Source: Trematomus loennbergii (Eukaryota; Chordata; Actinopteri; Perciformes; Nototheniidae). Taken from it: a stretch of 64,000 nt of DNA. Below, in pieces: positions 12,901 through 63,591 of the stretch (the stretch's first letter is position 1; each line of letters opens with the position of its first letter). The notes beneath the pieces were generated by a model. That model did not search any database and was not told where the DNA came from. It saw nothing but the letters and a program-made list of their open reading frames with translations. The DNA lies in NCBI GenBank assembly GCA_012861695.1, contig JAAOOA010000399.1, positions 12,320,731 through 12,384,730 of the forward strand, read 5' to 3'. The position numbers and the translations under genes were made by a program.

Positions 12901-14355
12901 ATGAATTCGTCTACAAGTTTAAAAGTGCGCCTGCCGGTGCTTGTTCTGGTGTTTGAGGTTGTTATGATCATTCTTTTTTCTCTTTTTGTAACGTATGATG
13001 ACAATGCCAATGCAAGGCTGCAGAACAATGAGACTAACCCAATGGACAACTCTTTGTATCGAGACTATCCCTACTTTGCTGACGTACAAGTAATGATCTT
13101 TGTAGGCTTCGGCTGTCTGCTCGCCTTCTTCCGATTTTACGGCTTCAGTGGAATGATCTTCAATTTTCTTACAGCTACATTCGCAATCCAGTGGGCGATC
13201 GTGATACAAGGTTTTTTCCAGTTTTACTATGATGGTAAAATTCACCTGGGAGTTGTCAACCTGCTGAATGCAGAGTTTGCCTGTGCCGTTGTGCTCATCT
13301 CTTTCGGAGCCGTTATTGGAAAAACAAGTCCTGTTCAGCTGCTGGTTATGGCTCTGCTGGAAATCCCTATGTTTTCTGTGGTAGAGTGGGCTGTATTGAA
13401 GTACATAAGGATCAATGACGCAGGCGGCTCTATACTTATTCACCTGTTTGCCTGCTACTTTGGTCTAGGCGTGACATTTGTGCTGTACCGCCCGAGCCTG
13501 AATAAGGGACATTCAAAAGAGATCACCAGTTATCAATCGGACATCCTCTCTGTGATGGGGACCTTGTTCCTCTGGGTGTTCTGGCCTTCTTTTAACTCTG
13601 CTCTGACCCTGAAGGGTGACGATCAACACAGAGCAGTACTCCACACTTTTATAGGTCTGACCTCCTCCACTATCACTGCCTTTGCTCTCTCTGCGGTGTT
13701 CAACAAGAGAGGCAAGCTCACAATGGCGGACATTCAGAATGTGACTCTGGCAGGGGGTGTGACTGTTGGGGCTACTGTGGACATGATGATTTCCCCTGTA
13801 GCCGCATACGTCCTGGGCATCATGGGCTGCACCGCCTGTTTCTTTGGATACAGGTACCTGACCCCCTTTATGGCTCGACGCATGAGGATCCAAGACCAGT
13901 GTGGCATTCACAACCTGCACGGACTCACTGGCCTCATTTCATCCACAGCAGGGATCTGTGCCATCCTCCTCGCTACAGAGGAAACCTACGGGCCCAGCAT
14001 GTACCAGATCTTTTCCCATCGTGCTCCACCAGCGGGAGACCCAAAGCTCCTGGAGCTGCAGAAGCTGATTCCCGGGCTGAAGCCGGGCTTGGGACGTACT
14101 GCGCAGGAACAAGCCCTCTACCAGGTGGCAGCTATTTTCGCCACCATCGCAGCATCTGCTGTCGGTGGGCTGCTCACTGGTATGGTCATAAAGCTGCCCT
14201 TCATGGCTTCCCCTTCCGACAAGGACTGCTTTGATGATGATCTCTTCTTTGACGTGCCGTCTGACTTTGACAGCGGACAACAGGGCCTCATAAGCTATGA
14301 TGAAAAGTTACAAATGAGCTCTATTGACACCAAAGAAGTCTCAAAGTCAGTCTAA
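12901..14355 (+). CDS. rhcg: Rh family glycoprotein, C type (ammonia channel), intronless
   Basis: Rh glycoproteins conduct NH3/NH4+ across plasma membranes; Rhcg types serve ammonia excretion in gill and kidney epithelia. The 484-residue protein is one uninterrupted frame with about 11-12 hydrophobic segments, the family's usual size. The twin pore histidines are present (His181 in ILIHLFACYFG, His340 in HNLHG, spaced 159 residues as in human RhCG). So are the two gate phenylalanines (Phe126 in NAEF, Phe231 in WPSFNSA) and the conserved Asp173 in NDAGGS. The loop after the first segment has a glycosylation sequon Asn43-Glu-Thr. The PSDKDCFDDD tail is Rhcg-like rather than Rhbg-like. Vertebrate Rh genes usually have about ten exons, so an intact single exon suggests an old, functional retrocopy; it may correspond to the teleost Rhcg2 or rhcgl1 type. 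The start is supported by the TATA spacing and the family N-terminus. Confidence 0.93.
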   Translation: MNSSTSLKVRLPVLVLVFEVVMIILFSLFVTYDDNANARLQNNETNPMDNSLYRDYPYFADVQVMIFVGFGCLLAFFRFYGFSGMIFNFLTATFAIQWAIVIQGFFQFYYDGKIHLGVVNLLNAEFACAVVLISFGAVIGKTSPVQLLVMALLEIPMFSVVEWAVLKYIRINDAGGSILIHLFACYFGLGVTFVLYRPSLNKGHSKEITSYQSDILSVMGTLFLWVFWPSFNSALTLKGDDQHRAVLHTFIGLTSSTITAFALSAVFNKRGKLTMADIQNVTLAGGVTVGATVDMMISPVAAYVLGIMGCTACFFGYRYLTPFMARRMRIQDQCGIHNLHGLTGLISSTAGICAILLATEETYGPSMYQIFSHRAPPAGDPKLLELQKLIPGLKPGLGRTAQEQALYQVAAIFATIAASAVGGLLTGMVIKLPFMASPSDKDCFDDDLFFDVPSDFDSGQQGLISYDEKLQMSSIDTKEVSKSV

Positions 14356-22439: not shown

Positions 22440-23880
<1,441 letters not shown>

Positions 23881-26112: not shown

Positions 26113-29100
26113 ATGTTTAATTTCGGGTCAAAAATGCTGCTGGTCTTCCTCCTGGCCTTCCCCTGTGGATTAATGTCCATCGGTAAGTCACATTTCTCGT
26201 TTAAAGCAGGAAGTGTATAACTTCGCTTTACTACGGCAACAGTTACAAAAGTTGTAAGATAGCCTCACATATTGACGTGGCATAGTCACACAGCTCTCCA
26301 CCAGGAGCTATACGTCCTCACCGCCGCTTTCCTACCTGCAATGTATGGATCTTTTACTTATAAGTTTATTCATGATTATAAGAGAGTTGTACTCGTCTCT
26401 TTTGCTCTAAAAAGGATCGTCTCGTAACAGCTGCTGGCGTCGAAGCTTTAGAAAAAGTAACGTCAGCCATTAAAAGTGAAGTTGCATTACACTTTGTGCT
26501 CTTTAGAGGTGATTTTAGACAAAGTCTAAAAGTCGTTGTTGATGCAGCAACAGTTAACGCTCCGTCCTGCTGGGACACGTCACCATAGATAAGATGGTGA
26601 CTTACTGTATACAAGTTTGTGTTTCTAAGTTTCTCATTGCTTCTCCCAAACACTTACATTAAAATGGGGGCTTTTTATTGTCCTGGTATTTTTCATTTTT
26701 TCAACTGGCAACAAAGTGGCCAGTTTGTCCACAGACAGGGAAATATGGCAATAATAAAAATGTTACAATGTGATACAACATGTAGGACATCATCCATTCA
26801 TTTGACTTTGAAATATTGTAGAAACTGCTTAAATCTAGCAAAATATCACTTTTGAAAACATGTAATTCATTGGTTGTTTTGGTGAATGGTCTAACTAGTG
26901 CCAAATATTCCATCTTTTCCACCAACAAAGGTTATTACGTTTTTGTAACCCTAACTACATAACCAACCAATAAGGACGGTGTGAAATCGACAAAAATGCC
27001 TTATTACTGATATATTGTGATTTATTTGGTGGTTACTTGGGAGATCTATAGGCATTTGTACAAGCTATACACACAACAAAAGTTATATGATAAGTAAAAC
27101 CGTAGTAAATTATTTTATGATATAATAAGGTAGTTTATTGTTCATTATGCTCACCAAAGACTGTTATAAAAATGGTAGCGGGAAATACACAGAACAGGAA
27201 AACACAATGCATTAGTATAAGATCAGACAATAATCAACATCCTTGACAGTATAATCAATATCTTTTTGTCTTCTCTCCTGCAGGCCATGTCTCTGCAGAC
27301 TCGGACTCTGCTGAGGACCTTGCTGAGGACCTTGCTGAGGACACAGAAGCTGCAGTAGATGAGGAGGAAGATGAGGAAGAGGTGCTCGTTGAGGAAGATC
27401 AGATCCAACCATCGGTATGTTTTAATCATACAGCAGCAAGGCAAGCCATTGGATTTACATGCAGATGATCAAGTAACAATGTCATGTGATGTTCCTCCTC
27501 AGGAAGCAGAGGAAGAGGACTCTGATGACGGAGCGGATAAACAGATAGGGTCTCACCCTGATGCCGACACCACCATCCTCTTCGTGACTGGAGAAGGTAG
27601 GCTTTCATTTAACCATCATCATTCGAGCTATTCTTTCAAGAGACGAAGACATTTTGCATGTTTGTTATGACATCTAATAACTCATACTTTATCTGTATTC
27701 GTGTTTTTAACATTATATTTATTTGTTGTTTTCATTAATTTAGAGTTCCCTGCCAATGAAATTGTAAGGTTCCTGGTGGGTTTCACCAACAAGGGCAGTC
27801 AGGATTTCACCGTTCAGTCGTTGGAGGCTTCCTTCCGTTACCCACAAGACTTCCAGTTCTACATCCAGAACGTAAGTTTGATCTGAAGTACATAAATAAA
27901 TATTATTACACACACATGTGCTCCACCTTTAATACAAATCCGATAGAAAATACTTTAAGAATGCAATTCTCTGTTGACGTGTTTTAAATCACTCAATGCC
28001 TATGCGTTTCAAAGTTTTTGGAATGTAGGTGTATAAGAGTATGTTAAAATATAAATCGGGTTAGAATACATATCTGTATGTGGTAAAAGAAACATAGAAT
28101 AGAGGCATAATTCTGCTAAGTTAAGACCATGAAAATATAGAAATTACAATATAAAAAACACAATTATGTACACTGCCAGTTTAATGCAGGTACAAAGTAC
28201 TCATAATATTGAAAAATATTGATATTATTCAATATGATTTTCCGGCCCTGCATGGATTTCATGATTTCTTTTTTGACATTCAGAATAAAAATTCACATTT
28301 GTTTTTAATGACAAAACTATTTCCCATTTCAGGATCATTAAAGTATATCTAATCCGATCTAGTTATCTTCTGCATGTGTTTTAACGTTAAATGTTTTGTG
28401 TAGTTCACAGCGTTGCCTCTGAGCACCGTGGTGCCGCCCCAGGCTCAGGCCTCCTTCGAGTACTCCTTCATCCCAGCACAGCCCATGGCGGGCCGTCCTT
28501 TTGGTCTTGTTATCCTCCTCAACTATCTAGACACCGAGGTAAAAAGGATTTTCATTATTTATTTATGAATAGCATTTATTATTAGTGGTGGTGCTTGAGG
28601 TCTGTTAAGGTTGCTTTGAGAACAGAAGTAGAGTGATGGGAGGAAGTATTCTCACAGCCCGACTTCAATTTGAATGACTAATGAAAGCGCATACCTGACG
28701 AAAACAATGTCAGCAAAGCAGTTAGTCTTCATATTCGTATATTTGTTTCCATTTTTACATAATTAGGATGACTGGTGGCTCCTCACTGTCATTATGTTCT
28801 GCTCGCTGCTGAGCTTTGACTGTTGTTTTGTCATAATGACATTCAGATTTTTAAAGAGTCGCTCTTCTAAAAAAAATCCATTAAGTTATTCCAAGGTACC
28901 TATTTGCTTTGATTCTTTGCTTACTAGTTTTTTTTTTACATTTATTCAGGGCAACACGTTCCAGGCGGCCATCTACAACCAGACTGTCACCATCACTGAG
29001 CTGGAAGAGGGAATTGACGGAGAAACGTGAGGCTCTCTTTTACTGATCTCTAACCCTGCACACTTAGTAGGAAAATATAAATCGGGTTCAGATTATTTTA

Positions 29101-50700: not shown

Positions 50701-53700
50701 AATACCTAACTAATTAGCAATACCCAAACTGGTTGATCAGGGCTCATGTGTTAAAGTGAAGGGACATATTGCTTTAACACCTTAAAATGCAAATCAAAAT
50801 GATTTTCTTCCTCAATCAAATTGACAACTACTTCCTTGATCTGTTTGAGAAAGTCAATTGGGCCCCTTTGCAATTTACCTGCCCAAGTTGACATATTCAT
50901 GCGAACAAATACATTTTAGATTAAAGACTGTTTGCTTGTTCAAGTCCTGTTGCGTTCAACCGGTTTTTGTTTTGGTCAGGTAGTTACAGCATGCAAAAGT
51001 ATTAAGATTTGGCTGGTGAACTAGTAAGCAAAACAAAAACTACATTGTCTTCTAGTATATCATATCATATTGCCCAATCCTTCTACCAGTAATTACCTCA
51101 TGCCACCTCATCATTCATCAAAAAGCTTCTAAGACCTTTTGTAAGATAGTAGTTACTTTAGCAGTAATGTCTTTCTACAGTTAAGAAGAATGACACCTTG
51201 CTACATGGAAAAAAAGGTTAAAAAAGGTTTCCTCAAATTCTGCCGGTTCCCTGTTGCTAAAGATATGGTTACTAAATATGGAGACGATTGAGAAAACAAC
51301 CAAATAAACGAGGCATCAGAGCCTTACATAGAGTGTTTGCATCTATGTTTGGTGCACCTGAAACATAGTTTTCTGTAAAGATGTAGGCGGTCTTTCCAGT
51401 TCTTATGAAGGTGGGAGGATTCGGTTTGTTTCCTTATATGTAACAAAAGAGGGGTAGTGCAATTTCCTGTAATAAGAAAACCAAAACCAAGAAATGTGAA
51501 AAATGGTAGTATTGTCTGTTAAATCTGCACTCCTTAATATAGAAATGAAAAAAAGATGTAGGCGTTCAACTTGTGGCCAACAAACCACATGCCACATCTT
51601 TATCCACAAAGCATCACCAACAACAATAGAGAGATTAAATTATTAGGGGAAGGTCTCTTACGTCTTGGCTTGCGGCACATCTTGTACAGGCAGCAGCAGG
51701 GACACACACAGCAGCAGATGAAGATGAGCAAAATGGTGACGAAGCCCCCAATCCCAAGCACCATGGGCATTGGTGAGGAAAGATCGTTAAAGATTTCACT
51801 GTAAAAGACAAAAAACGGTAACACTTTATATTAAGGTACACAAATTAACCATCAACTAGTTGTTAATTAACATGCATATTAGCAGTATATTGGCTCTTTA
51901 TTAGTCATTATAAAACACTTATTAATGCCTTATTCTGCTTGACCATATTCTACAAGTAATAAGCCATTAGTTGAGTTTTTCCTCAATAACCCTCTAATTA
52001 GTGCTTATTTATTGCAAGTAAGGAAGTTGTTGTACATGAGTTTTGGTCTTAATATGCTCTGCTCAATATGGGCCTAATAAGGCAGTAGTACCACAAGAAT
52101 AGTTATTCTACCATAATAACACTTATTAAAGGTGGGGTAGGTAAGTTTGAGAAACCGGCTCGAGATACACTTTTTGTTATATTCCATGGAATGCTCTTAA
52201 CATCCCGATAGCAATGAATATCTGAAGTGCTTTGACAAAAAATCCATAAAAAATGTCATCTGTGGAAGCCGTAGTACTGTAAAAAGCACGACCAATCATT
52301 TTAGCCGGCCCGGCTAAAATAACTGGATGGCCTAACTGCCTGTCAGCCTTCCATCTGTGCACAAACTTATCTCGTGCCCTCATTGGTCATGTGCGCGTTT
52401 GTGTGTGTTAGGAGGGGCTCTGTAAGGAAGTGGCAGATTTGTTCCGGCTGTGTATTTTCAAATTCCAGCGCACTCGAGCTGGTTTCTCCAAAATGACCTA
52501 CCCCACCTTTAAGTACAGGTATCAGTACAACAAAGTGAAAATACTCATGTGCCTGGCATAAGCGTTGTTTGTGTACACTAGCTACATTAGTGATTGAGCT
52601 GCTTCCTAATGGTCACCCGATTCACTTTAGGGGTTGTTAGATTATTATGGGTTTATAGTTTGTTGTTCACTGCTTGAACAACTAACATCAAGTCATTTCA
52701 GTAGTTGCGTGCTATAATGTATTTACAAAGTGTGAAGAGGGGGCAACTTTAGAATAGGGAACCTGTTCAGGTCAATTAGAGTCAAACTACTAGCTTATTG
52801 GTTATGAACAAGACTTCACTTTAAAATAGGGAACATATTCTTAGATATAAATACCTGATTTTGAGTTATTTAGACACAATTAACACTTATAGTTTCATGT
52901 CTTGTTACATAAGAGATCATATTTGTTAAGTGTTATTATTCTTGTGGTACTACTGCCTTATTAGGCCCATATTGAGCAGAGCATATTAAGACCAAAACTC
53001 ATGTACAACAACTTCCTTACTTGCAATAAATAAGCACTAATTAGAGGGTTATTGAGGAAAAACTCAACTAATGGCTTATTACTTGTAGAATATGGTCATG
53101 TAGAATAAGGCATTAATAAGTGTTTTATAATGACTAATAAAGAGCCAATATACTGCTAATATGCATGTTAATTAACAACTAGTTGATGGTTAATTTGTGT
53201 ACCTTAATATAAAGTGTTACCCATTAGGAAGACACGACATCCTGTTGCTGTACTGTGTTTTGCATAGTTTCCTAACTGTGATGACACATTTTATAAAAGG
53301 ACAAAGAGAGACTAGTTCAAGGCAATTAACAATCCATTACAAAATAACATAGAATACCAGTTATCTTGTGCATTCTCAGTCAGCCTGTCAAAAGAATTAG
53401 AACAGCAGAATCTGTGTGTGCAGGTTCCACAGCAAAATCCTGTACTGCATGTTTGGAAGGGTAGGTGATTGTATCCCTGACAGTCCTCCTCCCAGGCTGC
53501 AAGAGAGCAAACAGAAAGGTTAGCTAGCTACCCCCAAAGCTATATGGTGCTGACCTGCCAGAGATGGGTCAAATATGAGTAGTAAAGCATGAAAGTAGTT
53601 TGATGAAACACACGCATGCCTTACCCACTCAAGGAAAACAAGAACTTATTGGTTTGATGTGGTTTAGAACAACCTAATGAAACTATAACAATTAGTCCAT

Positions 53701-56850: not shown

Positions 56851-57928
56851 ATGCCTCTGGTCATCATGATGTGAATGAAAAAAAGAATACAAAACTGAGC
56901 ATTCATAAAGCAAGGAATTATTGCAAGGCTGTTCACTGATATAGCTTTCCCCAATACGCTTGTAACCGGGTGTATATAGAGTTTAAAAATCAGTTTGTTT
57001 TCTATTGTTGTTATATTTAGGACAAAATAGGCTTAAAATTCATATGAATTCCTTAATTGTCGGCAAAAATCACACAAGCAAACATATGTTTACAAGTGTC
57101 TCATCAACCCAACTTAAAGTACAATATACAATATCATAGAAAACAACATTTTAGAATAAGCTCAGGTTCAATAACTCGGTTTCAACACCAGAGGTCACTT
57201 GTGCACAGAAAATCCCTCTCCCCAACCACGTCAGAAATCATGTCACATCAATTCAAAAACACTACTGTGTGTTAAAGTTCAGCAAACAATACTTAATGAA
57301 GCCAGAATCATTGTGTGGAATAATATCATATTTTGAATATATTCAAGATCAATAACTGAAACATATTTTGCTATGGTTGCAGATAATTTATGCTACAATA
57401 AAAGATTTAGGCAAATCATTTTAGTTGAATTACACACAAATATTAATGGTTTTAAAATACCAGCAGGCTACTGCGAAACATACTGAAACTACTAGTGTAA
57501 TTGTTTGTAGCCCAGTTTGCTACTCCTAAACATGTATATCACATACAGTATTTACATACACTTGTCTGTGTAAAGACATTTTCATAATAGTCTTGTCTAT
57601 TCCTTTGTCCTTATATGTTTATTTCTGTGTACACTGAGAGAGAAAAAAAACAAATGGAGGTAAATTCTATGTATGTGTATGTGTATAAATACTTGGACAA
57701 TAAATGGTGATACTGATTATAATAAAGTATGCATATGCATGAATGTCTTTACGAATTTGCAGTCCTTGGAATATGTAACTAATGTCCATACAGGGTAAAC
57801 ATTGATTTATATGCAATGTTTGGAACAAAACCCAAAACAAATCAAGTATATTTTTAGACAACCTTCAAACATCCACAGAGAAAATTCCCTGCTTTATGCT
57901 TGAGTAACAGAAAACTGGAATGGCCCTT

Positions 57929-57956
57929 TGACGTAAATGAATGAGATCTCGCGAGA
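57929..57956 (+). promoter_or_regulatory. alas1: alas1 proximal promoter words: TGACGTAA and TCTCGCGAGA
   Basis: A CRE-like TGACGTAA (57929-57936) and the palindrome TCTCGCGAGA (57947-57956) lie about 60-90 bp before the predicted first exon. TCTCGCGAGA is a known core motif of broadly expressed vertebrate promoters, and mammalian ALAS1 is controlled in part through CREB-type sites. A weak TATA-like TATAAG lies at 57991-57996. Confidence 0.6.
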
Positions 57957-58017
57957 CTTCCACGCGATATGAGGCATGGCGTAAGCTGGTTATAAGAACT
58001 TGCACGTCCTCGTCCTA

Positions 58018-58044
58018 TCGTTCGTCCTCAGTGCAGGATAACGA
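58018..58044 (+). promoter_or_regulatory. alas1: iron-responsive element in the predicted 5' leader of alas1
   Basis: Lower stem TCGTT (58018-58022) pairs with AACGA (58040-58044). An unpaired C is at 58023. Upper stem GTCCT (58024-58028) pairs with AGGAT (58035-58039), including one G-U pair. The loop is CAGTGC (58029-58034). This meets every rule of the canonical element: C bulge, five pairs, then CAGUGN. It lies upstream of a clear donor (GAG|GTAAGT at 58184) in the only plausible alas1 first exon. The IRP proteins bind such cap-proximal hairpins and block translation when iron is low. If transcription began at the distance expected from TATAAG (about 58020), the lower stem would be cut, so the start site matters. 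Confidence 0.8.
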
Positions 58045-59625
58045 AGCAGTCACCTCCTTCACCTTCTCTGCAAAATAAGTCATTTTTGTTAGAGTGTAAC
58101 ACAACATTGGCTCAGCTGCTGTTACCCTGTTTACTAAACGACATTTGAAGAGGACTACGCAATTAAACGTGAAGTTTTGAGGAGGTAAGTCTCTTATTTT
58201 GGTCATCTTCATCTCCTGGTTGTAGCTTCTTGGCTAATGTTAGCTACATTGCTAAGCCCGGTCAACCGGCAAAGATCACAAGCAATCCGGTAAATTTTAG
58301 TCTTAGTCTATTTTACAATAGCTTTGTTTCCGAAATAAGCTTTAACCACAACCATTGATGTAAGTAAAGCGTTATTCAACGTTGGAGACAGACAGGTCGT
58401 GACTCTTCCTCTCCTAATGTGTTACAACCATGACATGTTATGCGAGTCAATACGGAACACCACTTTAAAGGGCGAATTATTAATTGAGTACAAATGTGTG
58501 TGATTTGTATTTAATAACAGAAAGTAAACTAAATGCTTGTGTCAATGCCAGTGTTTTTGTATTTAAATTGTGAATACAGTTGTACAGTACCACTAGGGAT
58601 ACCGGGTTTCATGTTACGTAACCTGACGGAATAACACTTGTGAGGACTATGGTTTTAGCTTTTGGAGAAAGTCGACTTTTTCCCCAAAAATGTATCACGG
58701 AGACGAGATATCTTAATAGCTTAAAGTCTTGTTTTTGGTGAAATTAGTTCGACTTCACGTGTACGTTTTATAAGGGCTCGTCTCCTTTTCCTGGAACTTC
58801 AAGTGGGAAAGAAGTTGGAGCGATAACTTGTCGAGGAATGTTTAGACCTCACTATCCGGGGGAAGGCTTATGACACAGGGATAGACGTAATACAGCTGGA
58901 ATTTTTTTTCATGTTTTTTTCCCCCAATTTGATCAGTCACCTGTTGCAGTGACTTCATCAGTTCATCCAGTCAATAACATTATTGTAAAGTGATAGAAAA
59001 ACGAATAGGATTTTTAGGTTTCAGTGGAAATAGATGTTGGGTATTCATGTAATGAGACAGCCTATACTTTTAGCTTGAAGGTTTATAACTCACCTTGAAA
59101 CATTACATAATAACTTTAACCAATAGGTCCACTGACTTGGATGTTTCTTAAGACTTTGACAGCTTATTAATACCTTCATCGGTTTATCAAAGTAAGCAAA
59201 CATCTTCCAACAATTTTCAATTGCCCTCAATAATTTAATAGTTATAGCGGACACATGGCAATTGTCATATAAGCCCTTTAACTGCATATTTTCGAATGCA
59301 GCAAATACTATGTTCAAACTTCCAAAATGTCTTTATTTAATTTACTTCCCAGAAATCAAAAAATAGGTCAGCTGTAATAAAAAAACAAGAAGATGCAGTA
59401 TTTGACCCTTAGAATGAAGAAGCAAACCCAAGGGTTGGGAACCACTGCCTTAAGCAACAACTCTGTAAAACAGGTTGTTGCAGCACACAGAAAAAAGGAT
59501 CTGAACTGTCCACAGCCGTTTCAATTTGCCTTTGTCAAAGCCACGCCCTTTGTTGTTAGCCACTGATACGTTTCAACTGTCTCCCACAGATCTCTGGACA
59601 ATCGTCATCATCACCACTGCTGACC

Positions 59626-62600
59626 ATGGATGTGATCGTGCGCCGCTGCCCCTTCCTGGCTCGTGTGCCCCAGGCCTTCTTCCAGCAGCCCAAAAAGTCT
59701 ATGGTGTCGTACGCCCAGAAATGCCCCATCATGATGGAGCTGGCCGCTAAACCTATGGCTCCATCAATGGCACGGGCCCTCTGCTCCTCCTCCTCCTCCT
59801 CCCACCAGAGGACTGTGGACGCCATGTCTGCCACTGAAGGTGAGGGTGCCAAAAAAGTAGATTCATTAAAAAATATATATTTTGTGAGAAATACCAGCTA
59901 AAATAATGACTTACTTTGAAATACTGTGTGTGATATTGTTTAAAGGTTGTTAGCATAAATCTGAAGCTTATTTTGTCTGCACGCAGGCCCCAAACAGGTA
60001 CAGGAGCCCAAGCTGCCAAGTGGCCACCCCATGCCACCATCAGGTCAGGCGGCCTCCAAGTGCCCCTTCCTTGCGGCTGAGATGGGCCAGAAGAACAGCA
60101 ATGTGGTCCGCCAGGTCGGCATGGAGTACCAGGAGGACGTTCAGGAAGTCCGCACGGTCCAGAAAGGTAAGAGTTGTGTAGAAATTGATGACATTTTACT
60201 GATTGGGCCCATCCTTTTGTTCGTTATTTGATACCATTTCCTTTATTTGACCTTTTTGCAGAAGTGTCCGCCGCCCAGTTGAAGAAGCCGTCCCTGACCA
60301 GTACCATTAAGGGAAGTGGAGATCTAATGAAGACCCTCCTGAAACAGAGACCTAAAGGTGTCTCTCACTTGCTGCAGGAGAACTTGGCAGGCAGTAGTAA
60401 GTCTAAAGATGGATCCTACTTGCAACAATTTCACTCTCGTAATGTAGTTTTATAAATTATTTTGAATTCAATATGTTTTGAGTGCTCAGACTTTTATCCG
60501 TTAGGCATTGCTTCATCTGTCACAATGCAACATGGCACATTAAGCAAGCTTTGCCTTCCTGTTCTGTCGCAGTGTCCCGCTACCAGTATGATGAATTTTT
60601 CGAGAAGAAGATAGAAGAGAAGAAGAGTGACCACACATACCGTGTGTTCAAGACCGTGAATCGTCTGGCTAGCGAGTTCCCATGGCTGAGGACTTCACTG
60701 GCTCTTTAGACGACAAGAAGGAGGTTTCCGTTTGGTGCAGCAACGACTACCTGGGCATGAGTCGACATCCACGGGTTGTGCAATCAATTACGTGAGTATT
60801 GGAGGACATGTTTGTTTGTGCGTGTCGGAAAAAAAGCACACTTGACTCATTCCCTTGGGTCTGTCTGTGTTTACATGTAATGAGAATAATATTTTTCTTG
60901 GCTGTCCACGTCTCCTGTTGGCGCTTTTAGAGAGTTTGTAAAGGGAAAATAACAGATGAGACACCTCACATAATAATTAAATACAACCTAACACCTACAG
61001 GTGATCCAGTCCATTGTTTGTGTAGGTGTAGAGTGTTAGTTGTTCATAGTTCACACATAGGTAGGATGTTTTTCTTCTTCTCCTTTCAGCCTGTCTGAGC
61101 TCGCCCAGCTCTCTTACCTGTGAAAGTGTCACTTACCTCAAGCTCCCTTGCTTAATTATTCAGAATTTTCCATTTAATGATGTCTTACCGCTCTTTAGCC
61201 TCTATCTGGAACACAAATGTGTGCAATCTTTGCTGTCCAGCTTCTAAAAACCGACCTAAATATCCGTCTCTTTTTTAGGGATACTTTACGAAAGCATGGT
61301 TCAGGGGCAGGAGGCACCAGGAACATCTCTGGGACCAGTAAATTCCACGTGGAACTGGAAAGTGAACTGGCTGACCTTCACAATAAGGACGCTGCGCTGC
61401 TCTTCACCTCCTGCTTTGTCGCCAATGACTCCACCCTCTTTACCCTCGCCAAGATGCTACCTGGTATGCAAACGTTTAAAAATAAATCTACCTTTCATTT
61501 TCGTTTTGAATTGATTATTAATTGTTGTGTGATATGCATGCTATAAGTCTCTATAACTCTCCTTCTCACTTCCCCTTCAAAACTATTTTAGGTTGTGAGA
61601 TCTACTCCGATGCGGGCAACCACGCCTCAATGATCCAGGGTATCAAGAACAGCGGTGCTAAGAAGTTCATTTTCCGCCACAATGACGTCGCCCATCTTCG
61701 AGAGCTTCTACAGAAGGGAGACCCCACTAAACCGAAGATCGTTGCCTTTGAGACTGTCCATTCCATGGATGGTTAGTTTGGGATGCTCCCATTTAACCTA
61801 TTTGTACAGCATTTTATAAACTTGCTTTATACCTGGTTGCTCATTAATTGTCATGAAAATGTTAGGCAATCATTAACAGCTAAACTTTCTGCCTGTTCTT
61901 TGGCTAAACGTTACCTTTTTTTAACTCATCTTTCTGTAACACAGGTGCTGTGTGTTCGCTGGAGGAGATGTGCGATGCGTCCCATGAGTTTGGAGCCATC
62001 ACCTTCGTGGACGAGGTGCACGCTGTGGGCCTGTACGGCTCCAGGGGGGGCGGCATCGGAGACCGGGATGGCGTCATGCACAAGATGGATATCATCTCAG
62101 GGACACTAGGTCAGCATGTTATCTCTACTCAAACTAAATGATAATGATGTTCTGCCAAGCTTTCTGACATTGAAGCCAGGCTGAGATGTTCCTAAGCCTT
62201 TTTAAATGAACCTGTAATCACACTTCACAAGAATATATAGTTGTATCATTATATTTTCCTTTTATATATGGCTACATTTATATATGTTTATGAATCAAAA
62301 CAGCTGCTCCTAGCTTGTGGAAATCGGTGTTTTGTTATCAGGATCAAGCCCCATCCGTGTCAACCAATATGCCAGAGGGCTTAAAGAAGCCAGAGCAGCC
62401 CTGCTGTTGCTAGGAGACTGTGGGCTCTTGCTGCACTCTTATTGAATTATCTCTGTGTCTGTGTGTTCCTGTCAACCTAATGGGACAATTATTTCTAACT
62501 GAGAGCTCTCCAGTCCCTGTTCTCCAGCAGGGACCATTTCAAAGGGATCTAGTTTTTAGATTGCAGTGGGAGGATTTGGCATAAACCACTGAGCATAATG

Positions 62601-63591
62601 TGAATGTGTTCAAAGGATGATGGAAGAATAACCCTCTGTGTCATGTCCTCTTGCAGGAAAGGCATTCGGGTGCGTGGGCGGCTACATCGCGAGCACAGCT
62701 GCTCTGGTGGACACGGTGCGTTCCTACGCTGCTGGTTTCATCTTCACCACCTCTCTGCCGCCGATGCTGTTGCACGGAGCCAGGACCTCCATCCAGGTCC
62801 TGAAAGGGGAAGAGGGTCGCGCGCTGAGACGCAAACACCAGCGCAACGTCAAGCTGCTCCGACAGATGCTGATGGACTCGGGGCTGCCGGTGGTGCACTG
62901 CCCCAGTCACATCCTCCCCGTCCGGGTAATTTATTATTGAATTTGTTGCCCAATGACGTGAAAGTTGACACCCTTCATTAAATAAAGCATGTCCTCGTTG
63001 CACCTTCCCAAAAGCTCCATTAATCATACATGTATTTTCTTACTTTTAGGTGTCAGATGCAGAGAAGAACACAGAGGTGTGTGACCTCATGATGAGTCGC
63101 CACAACATCTACGTGCAGGCCATCAACTATCCCACTGTTGCCAGGGGAGAAGAGCTCCTGCGTATCGCCCCGACTCCTCACCACACCCCTGAGATGATGA
63201 AATACTTTGTTGGTAAGAACATCTTAAATGTAAATTCACCCTGTTATACATACAACTTTTGAATCGGAGATGTGCTTATTCCCAGATCATCTTAAATGTA
63301 TAATGTGTTTAAAGAAGCTGAAGTTGTTAATCATTTTTTGTTTTCAGTATACACCTTGTGACTCACTGCAGTTCTCTTTGAGTAGCAAAAGTTAACTTGA
63401 CCTCCACTATTTCCTGTTTCCCCCCCACAGAGAAGCTGGTGCACACATGGAAGGATGTGGGCCTGAGTCTGAAGCCCCACTCCTTAGCAGAGTGCACATT
63501 CTGCCAGCAGCCGCTGCACTTCGAGGTGATGAGCGATCGTGAAAGGTCTTACTTCAGCGGCCTCAGCCATCCCATCTCAGCCTGCGCATAA
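59626..63591 (+). CDS. alas1: 5-aminolevulinate synthase 1 (housekeeping), with apparent 1-bp frameshift
   Basis: ALAS1 is the mitochondrial PLP enzyme that condenses glycine and succinyl-CoA, the first and limiting step of haem synthesis. Coding exons: 59626-59839, 59987-60166, 60262-60396, 60573-60791, 61279-61463, 61592-61771, 61945-62109, 62657-62925, 63050-63212 and 63431-63591, all GT-AG, about 623 residues. The presequence carries three haem-regulatory Cys-Pro motifs (RRCPFLA, QKCPIM, SKCPFLA). [12 protein letters not shown] and the C-terminus [17 protein letters not shown] are ALAS1, not ALAS2. Catalytic core: [28 protein letters not shown] (Ser in place of the first Ala), [12 protein letters not shown], and the PLP lysine in [11 protein letters not shown] across an exon border. 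In exon 4 of this list (60573-60791), at GAGTTCCCATGG (60674-60685), one base is missing. The frame runs to a TAG at 60706, while the neighbouring frame continues the conserved protein. A noncoding exon ends at 58184. Confidence 0.95.

Follow-up and report, generated by a model that had tools for sequence, protein, structure and literature searches.

The window, by which I mean the whole 64-kb stretch of DNA that was analysed, carries an alas1 gene on its forward strand, in which an intron of 1.4 kb separates the non-coding first exon from ten coding exons and which extends from about 58.0 kb to the stop codon at 63591. Within the first exon lies a hairpin with the layout of an iron-responsive element (IRE), and a short series of promoter-like motifs stands in front of it (Table 1).

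The window holds several other genes and features. An Rh-type ammonium transporter gene (12901-14355, forward strand) is read as one uninterrupted frame of 484 aa, and the best named matches of its protein are teleost Rh type B-like or rh50-like. Single exons were recognised of a TRAP alpha (SSR1-like) gene (27671-27886, forward strand; TRAP_alpha, E 1.7e-12) and, upstream of alas1 on the opposite strand, of a Shisa-type gene (53312-53527; Shisa_N, E 3e-8). An ArfGap domain match (E 1.3e-7) occupies 1888-2208 of the reverse strand, and a long trinucleotide repeat at about 22865-23144 contains open frames that read poly-Asp or poly-Ser.

Table 1. Features of the alas1 locus and the corresponding element of the alas2 leader. 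Positions are those of the window unless a contig is named.
Feature	Position	Strand	Basis or remark
CRE-like TGACGTA	57929..57935	+	motif scan
TCTCGCGAGA palindrome	57947..57956	+	motif scan; about 60 bases upstream of the IRE
TATA-like TATAAG	57991..57996	+	motif scan of 57801-58200
alas1 non-coding exon 1	58017..58184	+	5' end is a candidate; others considered, 58004 to 58024
Iron-responsive element (canonical, C-bulge, CAGUGC loop)	58018..58044	+	sequence, pattern scan, covariance model, five published features
Splice donor GTAAGT after alas1 exon 1	58185	+	read in sequence
alas1 intron 1	58185..59589	+	GTAAGT ... CCCACAG
alas1 exon 2	59590..59839	+	start codon 59626; haem-regulatory motifs RCPFL, KCPIM; translation and motif scan
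alas1 coding region, exons 2-11	59626..63591	+	stop TAA 63589-63591; splice sites, translation, domains, tree
One-base frame break, alas1 exon 5, run of C (TTCCCATG)	60677..60684	+	frame change in translation
alas2 IRE	C103:16085439-16085459 (L004 1501-1521)		pattern search, fold, covariance model

Judged by its predicted protein, the gene is ALAS1. Both the PF09029 presequence domain and the PF00155 catalytic domain are present, as they are in all 120 homologues among the matches listed, and the closest of these, at 98% identity, comes from the notothenioid Pogonophryne albipinna. Where the 120 best matches listed name an isoform it is the non-specific one and never the erythroid one, some of the proteins being unnamed. 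In a tree of 25 rows, consisting of the window protein together with 10 ALAS1 and 14 ALAS2 proteins picked from 240, the branch that separates ALAS1 and the window protein from the 14 ALAS2 sequences is supported at 100/100. The window protein also has three haem-regulatory motifs, RCPFL, KCPIM and KCPFL (pattern [NKR]CP-(hydrophobic or K)-[LM], first 220 residues). Of the 120 matches listed for the ALAS1 search, 99 have three such motifs, 19 have two and 2 have one; among the 120 listed for the ALAS2 search, partial isoforms included, none has three, 18 have two, 57 have one and 45 have none. An ALAS2 gene mis-assigned as ALAS1 is ruled out by the tree, by the motifs and by the location of alas2 elsewhere in the same genome, and the tree branch and the three motifs uphold the ALAS1-type identity proposed in the first-pass annotation.

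The frame break in exon 5 raises the question of a pseudogene, which I think unlikely: alas2 in the same assembly also loses its frame by one base at a run of C (C103:16092115-16092122), and the proteins of seven relatives read through. Because both breaks fall at C runs, they are probably homopolymer errors of the assembly and not signs of gene death.

The hairpin in alas1 exon 1

Positions 58018-58044 read, in order, TCGTT, C, GTCCT, CAGTGC, AGGAT and AACGA, and thus form five lower pairs, a bulged C (C58023), five upper pairs, one of which is a G-U (58024-58039), and a CAGTGC loop. This is exactly the structure that the first-pass annotation had drawn. Both a clean splice donor, the GTAAGT at 58185, and the ATG at 59626 follow downstream of the hairpin, and its placement in the predicted first exon also agrees with that annotation.

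The class of the element can be read from five IRE features listed in a survey of 2021 (PMC8466369). By the definitions given there, the C-G pair at positions 14-18 is supplied by C58029 and G58033 (feature #1), the AGU at positions 15-17 by 58030-58032 (feature #2) and the U or C at position 19 by C58034 (feature #3), while the bulged C at position 8 is C58023, unpaired in the local fold (feature #4), and the five-pair upper helix is GTCCT/AGGAT with its one G-U (feature #5). The hairpin also fits motif 1 (classical) of SIREs 3.0, defined by C8 and the loop CAGUG(A/C/G/U) (PMC12230718). When the window was scanned with a pattern of a bulged C, a five-pair upper stem (G-U allowed) and a CAGHGH loop, there was one match on the forward strand and none on the reverse. 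The hairpin is the sole canonical IRE of the 64 kb on either strand, and the first-pass annotation was right to call it canonical.

A structure of this kind is rarely produced by chance. In 19.2 Mb of simulated sequence (one strand; first-order Markov, composition as in the window) the upper part was found in 58 cases, with at least four of the five lower pairs in 3 and with all five in none. A covariance model made from eight classical IREs, ALAS2 being excluded, ranks the hairpin first of 14 window matches at 21.8 bits (E 0.0018), the runner-up having 13.9 bits. When up to three mismatches are allowed, the 17-base word TTCGTCCTCAGTGCAGG has a single match in the window, at the IRE, and at least one match in 9 of 100 shuffles. 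The simulation, the covariance-model rank and the genome-wide pattern search described below rule out a chance hairpin, and the hairpin at 58018-58044 is confirmed as real.

Folding energy contributes little to this. The 43-base stretch folds into the hairpin as drawn at -9.3 kcal/mol, with a z of only -1.58 and with 19 of 200 shuffles at least as stable, so that it is the sequence pattern, not the energy, that carries the argument. The first-pass annotation had also proposed an Rfam IRE search, which brought it no support: Rfam 15, run without a positive control throughout, gave no IRE match in the whole window at the gathering score, no IRE and three other weak matches in 1,201 bases at E up to 10, and no match of any kind in 66 bases under the same limit.

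The alas2 leader of the same genome

An IRE pattern with 19 fixed bases has exact matches at two places in the 1.21-Gb assembly, the alas1 leader and the alas2 leader, where simple arithmetic gives about 0.01 exact matches expected by chance at even composition. Seven of the nine pattern matches have one or two mismatches and are taken as chance, since about 14 with up to two mismatches are expected in 2.4 billion positions at even composition. The reversed-pattern control gave one match. The genome_contigs collection, in which contaminating vertebrate DNA was looked for by means of the 20-base IRE word, gave none.

The alas2 copy lies on contig C103, in an exon that precedes exon 2 of alas2, the first coding exon, by 1.6 kb (alas2 was found by tblastn), and a GTAAGC donor follows two bases past the last base of the lower stem. 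When the two gene starts (2.2 and 2.3 kb) were compared by blastn, the best match was the 18-base word GTTCGTCCTCAGTGCAGG (E 3e-4) and the next had E 0.051. Eighteen is also the length of the longest word shared by the two leaders, against a maximum of 14 across 200 mononucleotide shuffles. From this identity, and since no further match between the gene starts has an E below 0.05, it follows that the two IREs are homologous and that nothing beyond the element has been preserved. The close resemblance to the ALAS2 element noted at first pass now has a concrete form in these 18 bases, shared by two leaders of one genome.

The two copies are not of equal quality. Where alas1 has AGGAT, alas2 has AGGTC, which leaves a U-U mismatch in the alas2 upper helix, and the alas2 hairpin reaches -3.6 kcal/mol and 13.4 bits compared with -8.5 kcal/mol and 21.8 bits for alas1. 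It folds with three lower pairs. On account of the mismatch, alas1 has the better IRE: in this assembly the alas2 element lacks feature #5 whereas alas1 has all five, and a one-base assembly error could be the reason.

An icefish with a dying alas2 was considered as an explanation and rejected as unlikely, because beta-globin exons are present. Five copies of beta-globin exon 2 lie within 22 kb (C27:12876660-12898507, L016-L020); four are open, and L017 shifts frame after the conserved motif. Most of the icefishes examined in published work have no globin genes, and truncating alas2 mutations were reported there in 6 of 10 icefishes and in none of the other notothenioids (PMC7660546). Given these losses and the beta-globin copies seen here, the host is most likely a red-blooded fish. 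It is also conceivable, if rather unlikely, that iron gating has moved in this notothenioid lineage, with the alas2 IRE decaying and the alas1 IRE perfect, so that iron would limit housekeeping and not red-cell haem. If true, the arrangement of mammals, in which the red-cell gene bears the IRE, would here be reversed, which is of interest in the group from which the icefishes, devoid of haemoglobin, arose. The two paralogous leaders in one genome, one with a perfect IRE and one with a mismatched IRE, form a direct test pair.

Function, transcription and descent

I consider it probable that teleost alas1 has here a genuine 5' iron-responsive element, which descends from an ancestral ALAS and gates haem synthesis by iron. 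The binding of an IRP to a 5' IRE blocks translation at low iron, as the established IRP/IRE mechanism has it (PMC3904948). In alas1, a shortage of iron would lead IRP1 or IRP2 to bind the hairpin near the mRNA cap and so stop ribosome loading, and a plentiful supply would release the IRPs and allow ALAS1 to be made. Housekeeping haem synthesis would in this way be tied to iron supply, in addition to the haem feedback expected from the three haem-regulatory motifs. A working element would mean that in bony fish, in contrast to mammals, the supply of iron governs housekeeping haem synthesis at its first step. The transfer to mammals of findings on fish iron physiology, in porphyria-type models and in zebrafish would then be affected.

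All of this presupposes that transcription passes through the hairpin. The palindrome TCTCGCGAGA, a core-promoter motif, and the CRE-like TGACGTA at 57929 both lie upstream of it, and the spliced alas1 leader, counting from 58004, has no upstream ATG. A point of doubt is the TATAAG at 57991, which at the usual TATA spacing predicts a start at about 58016-58022, in or beside the lower stem and right on the border of the hairpin. Three lower pairs would remain after a start at 58020, and the element would be lost with one at 58024. The hairpin might then lie at or above the transcription start, be absent or partial in the mRNA, and be a relic without function. I regard this as very unlikely. The simulation makes it hard to see how a perfect IRE could survive by chance or decay, and the three lower pairs left by a start at 58020 are as many as the alas2 copy of the same genome folds with. 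Furthermore, the other teleost ALAS1 IREs sit in 5'UTRs taken from gene models or cDNA (PMC3904948).

A transcribed element may still be hidden by its surroundings, and folding of the leader, which had also been proposed at first pass, gives a divided answer. The hairpin is recovered in the spliced leader alone when the start is at 58017 (IRE probability 0.74) and is lost when the start is at 58004 (0.003), and with 60 coding bases added the global folds give IRE pair probabilities of 0 to 0.03 for five starts from 58004 to 58020. Where the RNA ends matters in the same way: moving its 3' end from 58120 to 58130 lowers the upper-stem probability from 0.90 to 0.11 or 0.26 (starts 58004 and 58017), and with the end at 58150 it is 0.003 or 0.001 for the same starts. 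A long-range pairing of 58033-58043 with 58120-58130 competes with the IRE, and it could itself be a second, conditional structure.

These folds suggest a reading in which the IRE is transcribed with its 3' arm paired to 58120-58130, and is either mostly masked and weak or dependent on the breaking of that pairing. The competing pairs do appear in five of the six folds examined, and the drop in upper-stem probability sets in once the RNA extends past 58120. Nonetheless this reading seems to me improbable to about the same degree as a relic above the transcription start. Limiting the pairing span to 100 bases leaves the IRE at 0.70-0.90 (a limit of 150 bases gives 0.25 or 0), and forcing the IRE in the spliced leader costs nothing with a start at 58017 or 4.4 kcal/mol with a start at 58004, a price that I infer could be paid by protein binding. 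Global folds of long RNAs are unreliable in any case: among 200 leaders with the downstream part shuffled, the hairpin has a probability above 0.5 in 73.5% and is masked (below 0.05) in 10%.

As to descent, for which retention and exchange between paralogues had both been proposed at first pass, the IRE most likely comes from a single ancestral ALAS gene and would have been kept in ray-finned fish alas1 and lost in tetrapod ALAS1. An alternative is that a functional IRE passed from alas2 to alas1 through gene conversion within fish; a short conversion tract would likewise leave exactly 18 identical bases and nothing else that matches below E 0.05. I think this unlikely, if somewhat less so than either of the readings that would disable the element. 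The identity ends near the IRE borders and within the 3' arm (ATAAC against TCAAC), as expected of selection on an old element, and human ALAS2 has these bases too. Retention is favoured by the published IREs in the ALAS genes of a tunicate and a sea urchin, which indicate an ancestral IRE (PMC3904948).

That study (Tzou et al. 2014, PLoS One 9:e86718; PMC3904948) also bears on the novelty of the present case. A high-quality IRE was found there in three of four teleost ALAS1 5'UTRs, in none of five from mammals and in none of five from birds, reptiles and amphibians, and among ALAS 5'UTRs in one of two from chordates (the tunicate) and in the single one from an echinoderm (the sea urchin). The 5'UTRs were drawn from gene models or cDNA extension. 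Its authors present this as the first case shown for vertebrate ALAS1 and make the argument that the IRE was retained since the common ancestor. The first-pass interpretation is right in kind and partly supported, but the surprise that it implied is not, because both the teleost ALAS1 IREs and the argument for retention have been in print since 2014. A search of titles and abstract starts, partly among the matches listed, found no experimental test of a fish alas1 IRE, and within the same scope it found no study that compares the IREs of alas1 and alas2 base by base within a single notothenioid genome.

Comparison with known elements

With the classical IREs (ferritin, TFRC, SLC40A1, ACO2 and SDHB) the alas1 hairpin has in common the C8 bulge, the five-pair upper helix and the loop of CAGUG followed by a pyrimidine. 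Their stem sequences are unlike its own. The likeness to the vertebrate ALAS2 5' IRE is closer, both in the 18 bases identical to the alas2 leader of this genome and in the location of the element in the exon that precedes the start-codon exon, with an intervening intron of 1.4 kb in alas1 and 1.6 kb in alas2; the difference is that the present gene is ALAS1. With the teleost ALAS1 IREs described in PMC3904948 it shares the gene, the location, the element class and the argument for retention. The present hairpin is thus a further case of a published pattern, a good new example and no discovery. Unlike that computational survey, the present analysis concerns a notothenioid or a close relative and compares the alas1 leader base by base with that of alas2 from one and the same genome.
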